Origin: Candidatus Zhuqueibacterota bacterium
GTDB lineage: Bacteria; Zhuqueibacterota; Zhuqueibacteria; Oceanimicrobiales; Oceanimicrobiaceae
Assembly (NCBI GenBank): GCA_029262005.1
Contig: JAJDAG010000144.1
Span: 1 to 39,386 of the forward strand
Length of the DNA: 39,386 bases
Direction: 5' to 3'
Part shown: positions 782 to 1,050 of the stretch, piece after piece
Numbering within the stretch: the stretch's first letter is position 1
Layout: each line of letters starts with the position of its first letter
The notes under the pieces: model-generated
Told to the model about the DNA's origin: nothing
What the model saw: only the letters and a program-made list of their open reading frames with translations
Database searches by the model: none
Made by a program: the position numbers and the translations under genes

Positions 782-960
782 GCTATCCTTCCTTGCAATA
801 CGGGTTCATTGAAAGTAGTAATGTCCCAAGCGACTGTTCGGACTTCAGAGAACAAAACAGTCTGCCGGATCCGGCTACTGGCGGGCTCACAAGCCCTAGG
901 GTGGAACGATCTCGACGGACTATTTTTAAAGATAGTGTTTTGACTGATCAATGTCACTAA
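782..960 (-). ncRNA. candidate IS110 bridge RNA in the left-end non-coding region
   Basis: The stretch upstream of the recombinase gene is rich in stems when read on the minus strand. ACTAT/ATAGT pairs at 936-932 with 923-919. GGGCT/AGCCC with loop TGTG lies at 896-883. GCCGGATCCGGC is at 875-864. GACTGTT/AACAGTC pairs at 862-856 with 838-832. A weaker GGG-CATT/AATG-CCC stem follows near 825-800. Just 5' of the 896-883 hairpin is TCCACCCTA (905-897), matching the REP target plus the CT core. Just 3' of it is GTAG (878-875), the reverse complement of CTAC. This is the layout of a bridge-RNA target-binding loop: left guide, distal hairpin, right guide. The exact RNA ends cannot be read from sequence. 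A 76-aa minus-strand ORF overlapping this stretch is taken as spurious. Confidence 0.65.
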
Positions 961-972
961 TATTAATATACA

Positions 973-1050
973 AGGGTGGAGTCGCACTCCACCAAAAAAA
1001 CATAGCATAATAAAGCCACGGAATAATGGTGGAGTTGGACTCCACCCTAC
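973..1050. repeat. REPIN (inverted pair of REP hairpins), family A copy 1, broken on its left by the IS110 element
   Basis: Two hairpins, GGTGGAGT-CGC-ACTCCACC (975-993) and GGTGGAGT-TGG-ACTCCACC (1028-1046), face each other across a 34-base spacer. The right one ends in CTAC, the complement of the GTAG guide tetranucleotide typical of REPs. The left one lacks the GT of its GTAG, consistent with interruption by the IS. The spacer and right hairpin are nearly identical to the copy at 3296-3380. Confidence 0.85.

Follow-up and report, generated by a model that had tools for sequence, protein, structure and literature searches.

The 39,386-nucleotide window analyzed here is the whole of contig C51 from a Candidatus Zhuqueibacterota genome. 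At its left edge it carries part of an IS110-family element that has split a GTAG-tagged REP, and with high confidence we consider the best explanation of the sequence to be that the left end of this element encodes a bridge RNA reading that REP. REP-targeting IS110 elements (PMC1525189), bridge RNAs (PMC11208160), and natural redirection between related elements (PMC11187229) are already known; what is new is a further REP-targeting IS110 with a bridge RNA in which guide and target have changed together within one genome. The genome was examined through regions and pattern searches. A preliminary description of the window had proposed a REP-targeting IS110 with readable guides, and that proposal is borne out by both junctions, a covariance match, and the placement of all four guides. 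The element would place a REP-targeting bridge RNA, together with GTAG REPs, in Calditrichota, the probable host phylum. This phylum is not on the list of a 2013 survey (PMC3733652), whose GTAG REPs come from Proteobacteria, Cyanobacteria, Chloroflexi, and the PVC group.

The transposase gene is of the DEDD and serine type and occupies positions 1–781 of the minus strand. Base 1 of the window lies inside its open reading frame, which starts at 781 and is ended by the contig edge after the N-terminal 260 residues. The protein matches PF01548 (E = 5e-27), the RuvC-like DEDD domain, and PF02371 (E = 6e-14), which holds the conserved serine; the complete relative G001 supports the assignment to the family. 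Solved structures that match the protein include those of ISCro4 and IS621, and its putative catalytic residues D8, E52, D94, D97, and S233 are kept, aligning with the catalytic D11, E60, D102, D105, and S241 of IS621. A scan of genome contigs for relatives returned one, in a Caldithrix sp. MAG from the same family as the window genome, which is the closest named relative and the basis for calling the host Calditrichota-like, and a search of 82 genomes of the phylum gave one further, partial element (G006). Searching plasmids for the left-end DNA gave no match.

Between the gene and the left junction lies a non-coding left end of 191 nt (782–972, minus strand), the length previously described, which would encode the bridge RNA. 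On the minus strand the REP reads ACTCCACCCT at 982–973 and then switches to element sequence, TGTATATT, from 972, exactly as had been reported; the element thus begins directly after ACTCCACC-CT. The interrupted palindrome, GGTGGAGT-GCG-ACTCCACC (975–993, minus strand), forms the left side of the target, and the core dinucleotide CT (973–974, minus strand) recurs at all of the right ends, giving the short core at both ends that is typical of IS110, a family lacking terminal inverted repeats. An intact REP, GTAGGGTGGAGTCCAACTCCACC, lies nearby at 1028–1050 (minus strand) in inverted orientation relative to the interrupted one; it continues CTAC, in keeping with the earlier expectation that an unbroken REP would go on with AC.

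All four guides were placed by the scheme established for IS621 (PMC11208158). The left target guide (LTG), UUCCACCCU (898–906, minus strand), pairs with 9 of the 9 bases of the left target CTCCACC-CT, core included, eight of them exactly and one by wobble, and G907 may add another wobble. It contains the string TCCACCCT at 905–898 that had first been noticed, with G907 and U906 ahead of it. The target-loop hairpin GGGCT-TGTG-AGCCC (883–896, minus strand) is present as claimed, although it does not follow the guide immediately: A897 intervenes. Beyond it, GTAG at 878–875, also correctly described, is the right target guide (RTG), GUAG, which pairs with CTAC, the sequence found at all seven right ends. 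A longer, seven-base RTG (CCAGUAG) is conceivable, but it pairs just five or four bases with the two candidate right flanks, which supports a four-base guide as in IS621. In the donor loop, the left donor guide (LDG), ACAGUCGCU (829–837, minus strand), corresponds at nine of nine positions to the right-end terminus ACAGTCG-CT seen on C196 and C197, and the right donor guide (RDG), AUUGCAAG (792–799, minus strand), would read CTTGTAT and is near-identical to the IS621 RDG A157–G165 (PMC11208158). The two target guides are complementary to the target flanks, and the two donor guides to the joined ends of the element itself.

Homology of the RNA was assessed with a covariance model, R1, built from the left ends of 11 IS110 relatives on proteobacterial plasmids, with the Calditrichota sequences left out. 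Its structure is a consensus from averaged pair probabilities, RNAalifold having given a poor structure on the same proteobacterial alignment. The model matches the window over its full length at 925–787 of the minus strand (55.4 bits, E = 5e-14), the runner-up in the 39 kb scoring 7.8 bits, and the match delimits a bridge RNA core of a target-binding loop and a predicted donor-binding loop (787–925), the former with its stem, LTG, hairpin, and RTG. Covariation in the target-loop stem of the 11 proteobacterial left ends is strong: double changes occur in 11 of 14 pairs, none of 500 shuffles came up to what was observed, and pairing is lost when the partners are slid out of register. In the R1 alignment the C51 guide lines up with the LTG of the relatives and the hairpin with their stem-loop, and the model also matches the left ends on C182 and C129 and that of G001. 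The fold check suggested in the preliminary description therefore came out in its favor. Single-sequence folding of the C51 left end was unremarkable (z = -1.66) and carries no weight in this assessment, and covariation could not show among the four Calditrichota left ends, which resemble one another too closely. A search of Rfam found no family above chance; the sole entry listed, RF03035, is a chance match whose 24 bits fall short of the 95.5-bit cut-off.

The C-terminus of the transposase and the right flank of this copy are on unlinked contigs, for which there are two candidates, C196 and C197. Both begin within an identical transposase C-terminus, share the right end, and diverge right after CT-AC, so that CTAC, and with it GTAG, is restored whichever is the true partner; this is the outcome that had been predicted for the right-end flank. 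The window and C182 begin at the same base, as would be expected if the assembly breaks where both copies are identical. Right ends read CTAC in every case (seven of seven, five from this genome and two from relatives). The majority of REPs in this genome read AGTTnnGTAGGGTG, and four of the five right flanks, with the pattern CTACnnRRCT (CTACTTGGCT, CTACAAGACT, CTACAGGACT, and CTACATGACT), resemble its tail. Several remnants of right ends from this element family occur on C197 (L066, at 139 and 1451, 1.3 kb apart), C81 (L067), and C106 (L068), each followed by AC and with no matching left end nearby.

The REPs of this genome are GTAG-tagged palindromes (GTAGGGTG...CACC) with variable inner arms. 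Seven strict copies were found along with further GTAGGGTG palindromes, which is few for a REP family. There are six matches to PF01797 in the genome. The window contains one of them, at 6172–6193 and 6245–6796 of the plus strand together with its surroundings: a RAYT-like N-terminus (25.1 bits) that runs into unrelated sequence, and a GTAG palindrome of a different subtype, GTAGGGTGCGCCTTTGGCGCAC, just upstream. On C52 (L010), a Y1_Tnp-like open reading frame at 1–462 of the minus strand, with PF01797 below the Pfam cut-off, sits between two inverted REPs of the same subtype as the target of the window element. On C22 (L041, about 879–905), CCCTTGTATAT, with which the left junction of the element also begins, stands directly before a REP (AGTTAGGTAGGGTGGCG) and could be either a chance occurrence or a tiny relic of a left end. 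A different repeat, GTAGGGTGGGCTTGTTTCTTAAGCCCACC, occurs on C19 and C151 (L073, L074, L087, and L088) as two pairs, with copies about 1.1–1.4 kb apart.

Other copies within the genome adjoin REPs in the same way: the left ends on C182 and C129 lie against REP palindromes, joined to them at the same CT, and all five right ends read CTAC, the result that had been anticipated for other copies. The C182 copy has a protein 87% identical to that of C51, and identity between the two left ends is about 95%. Its LTG, UCGCACCCU, differs from UUCCACCCU of C51 by two adjacent substitutions (TC to CG), and the REP flanks, CCGCACCCT for C182 and CTCCACCCT for C51, differ at the same two adjacent bases. The C182 guide matches its own flank over 10 bases, eight exactly and two by wobble (reached in 17 of 5000 shuffles), and the remnant on C129 has an LTG, UUUCACCCU, that pairs fully with its own REP once wobbles are allowed. 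This is an unusually clear co-change of guide and target between sister copies within one genome. Differences between the C51 and C182 coding sequences number 25, 9, and 47 at codon positions 1, 2, and 3, a third-position bias consistent with selection having acted on both lineages. The Calditrichota relative G001 has an RTG that fits at 7 of 7 positions and an LTG that misfits its own left flank (5 of 9 exact); this LTG, UCCCACCCU, would suit the ACCCCACC subtype found on C81 of the window genome, while the element actually lies at CGTTACCCT. G001 was left out of the REP insertions: its flanking palindrome occurs once in that genome, and a 394-kb sample of it contained no GTAGGGTG palindrome.

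How far do these matches exceed what could arise without guidance? An exact copy of the flanking 8-mer appeared inside the left end in 13 of 5000 dinucleotide-preserving shuffles, and a 10-base match with wobble as good as that observed in 29 of 5000 shuffles of the C51 left end; both figures leave aside the position of the guide just 5' of a conserved hairpin. A lone eight-base match, expected in about 1 in 400 shuffles, could be due to chance or to trapped REP-derived sequence, with the protein or DNA structure choosing the REP; insertion sequences of other families do target REPs without guide RNAs (PMC1525189). We regard this as extremely improbable here, since the match coincides with the LTG as placed by a covariance model derived from another phylum, the C182 guide is altered together with its target, and matching of LTGs across 15 elements, like that of RTGs across 8, scores above all 5000 partner shuffles. 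The co-change itself could be read differently, with guides that never switched and targets that drifted toward them after insertion, or with copies placed by recombination. The variable arms of REPs and the disagreement of guide and flank in G001 lend this some plausibility. Each flank is nevertheless a REP palindrome that is intact and self-complementary, and both subtypes also occur free of the element, one on C52 and at 1028 of the window, the other on C70, which marks the flanks of C51 and C182 as ordinary REPs and leaves drift or recombination a most improbable account. Guide switching between the two copies is the reading we prefer. For the natural acquisition of new bridge RNA guides, C51 and C182 provide a clean pair with which guide switching could be tested.

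In the mechanism that we propose, the bridge RNA would be transcribed and bound by the transposase, and its target loop would pair with a GTAG-tagged REP, the RTG reading the CTAC/GTAG tag and the LTG the adjacent arm of the palindrome. The transposase would then exchange strands at CT in one insertion orientation, parting the tag from its palindrome, and sister copies would carry LTGs fitted to differing REP subtypes. Transcription of the RNA can be envisaged by analogy with IS621, whose bridge RNA is transcribed from a promoter at the circle junction (PMC11208158). The left end contains TATATT (965–970, minus strand), a predicted -10 element, and joining the right end to the left would create TTGACT-17-TATATT, with TTGACT contributed by the right end across a 17-bp spacer; this combination is missing from the integrated left end. 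An excised circle may in this way gain a promoter to drive bridge RNA transcription, and it is the predicted junction promoter that suggests a circular intermediate. More tentatively, and with more doubt than confidence on our part, IS110 bridge RNAs of distant phyla may have converged independently on using GTAG, the REP tag, as their landing pad by means of a divided guide, in which a fixed RTG (GUAG) and a constant CACCCU read the tag end and two LTG positions switch with REP subtype (TC, CG, TT, and CC in four copies); within one genome, guides would then have been reprogrammed naturally from member to member of a repeat family.

A close counterpart is IS621 of E. coli, also of the IS110 family (PMC11208160, PMC11208158). 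Both have an upstream bridge RNA with the order LTG, hairpin, RTG, and donor loop; both share the CT core, the RTG GUAG, the donor sequence CTTGTAT, and a junction promoter (predicted for the C51 element); and both insert into a GTAG REP with CTAC after the core. The preliminary description was right about the CT core and CTTGTAT donor junction of IS621. The two differ in that the C51 protein is about 32% identical to that of IS621, the REP palindrome and LTG are others, the RDG has one flipped base fewer, and the host is Calditrichota-like; a transposase this far from IS621 is a possible additional recombinase. The closest transposases found outside Calditrichota, mostly 42–46% identical, belong to plasmid IS110s of Klebsiella, Xenorhabdus, Rhizobium, and others (L042–L050), which match the same bridge RNA model and have ACAGT(T/C)G-CT at the right end and CTTGTAT at the left, whereas CTAC is absent from all of their right targets, which have different sequences.

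The preliminary description had called the element convergent with or related to IS621, and the former fits better than the latter. The identical core, RTG, and donor motif and the near-identical RDG would be explained if REP targeting had been inherited from a common ancestor. We consider this rather unlikely, given that the donor motif is also common to the plasmid relatives, that these lack CTAC at their right flanks despite being nearer to the element than IS621 is, and that in a transposase tree IS621 and ISCro4 split from the other 16 proteins with 100/100 support rather than grouping with the element. Convergence is likely on this comparison of sequences, and is graded so rather than as proven because sampling of the tree is biased toward relatives of the query and several branches are long.

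Selective insertion into REPs is shared with ISPpu9, ISPpu10, ISPa11, and ISRm19, REP-associated IS110/IS1111 elements whose hosts, in contrast, are Pseudomonas and Sinorhizobium (PMC1525189); ISPa11 is of the IS1111 type, which has its guide region on the downstream side of the gene (PMC11187229). The pair ISEc11 and ISXne4, an example of natural redirection, likewise consists of related elements with both guide and target altered (PMC11187229), but those are in separate hosts with transposases 72% identical, whereas here the two copies share one genome and their transposases are 87% identical.
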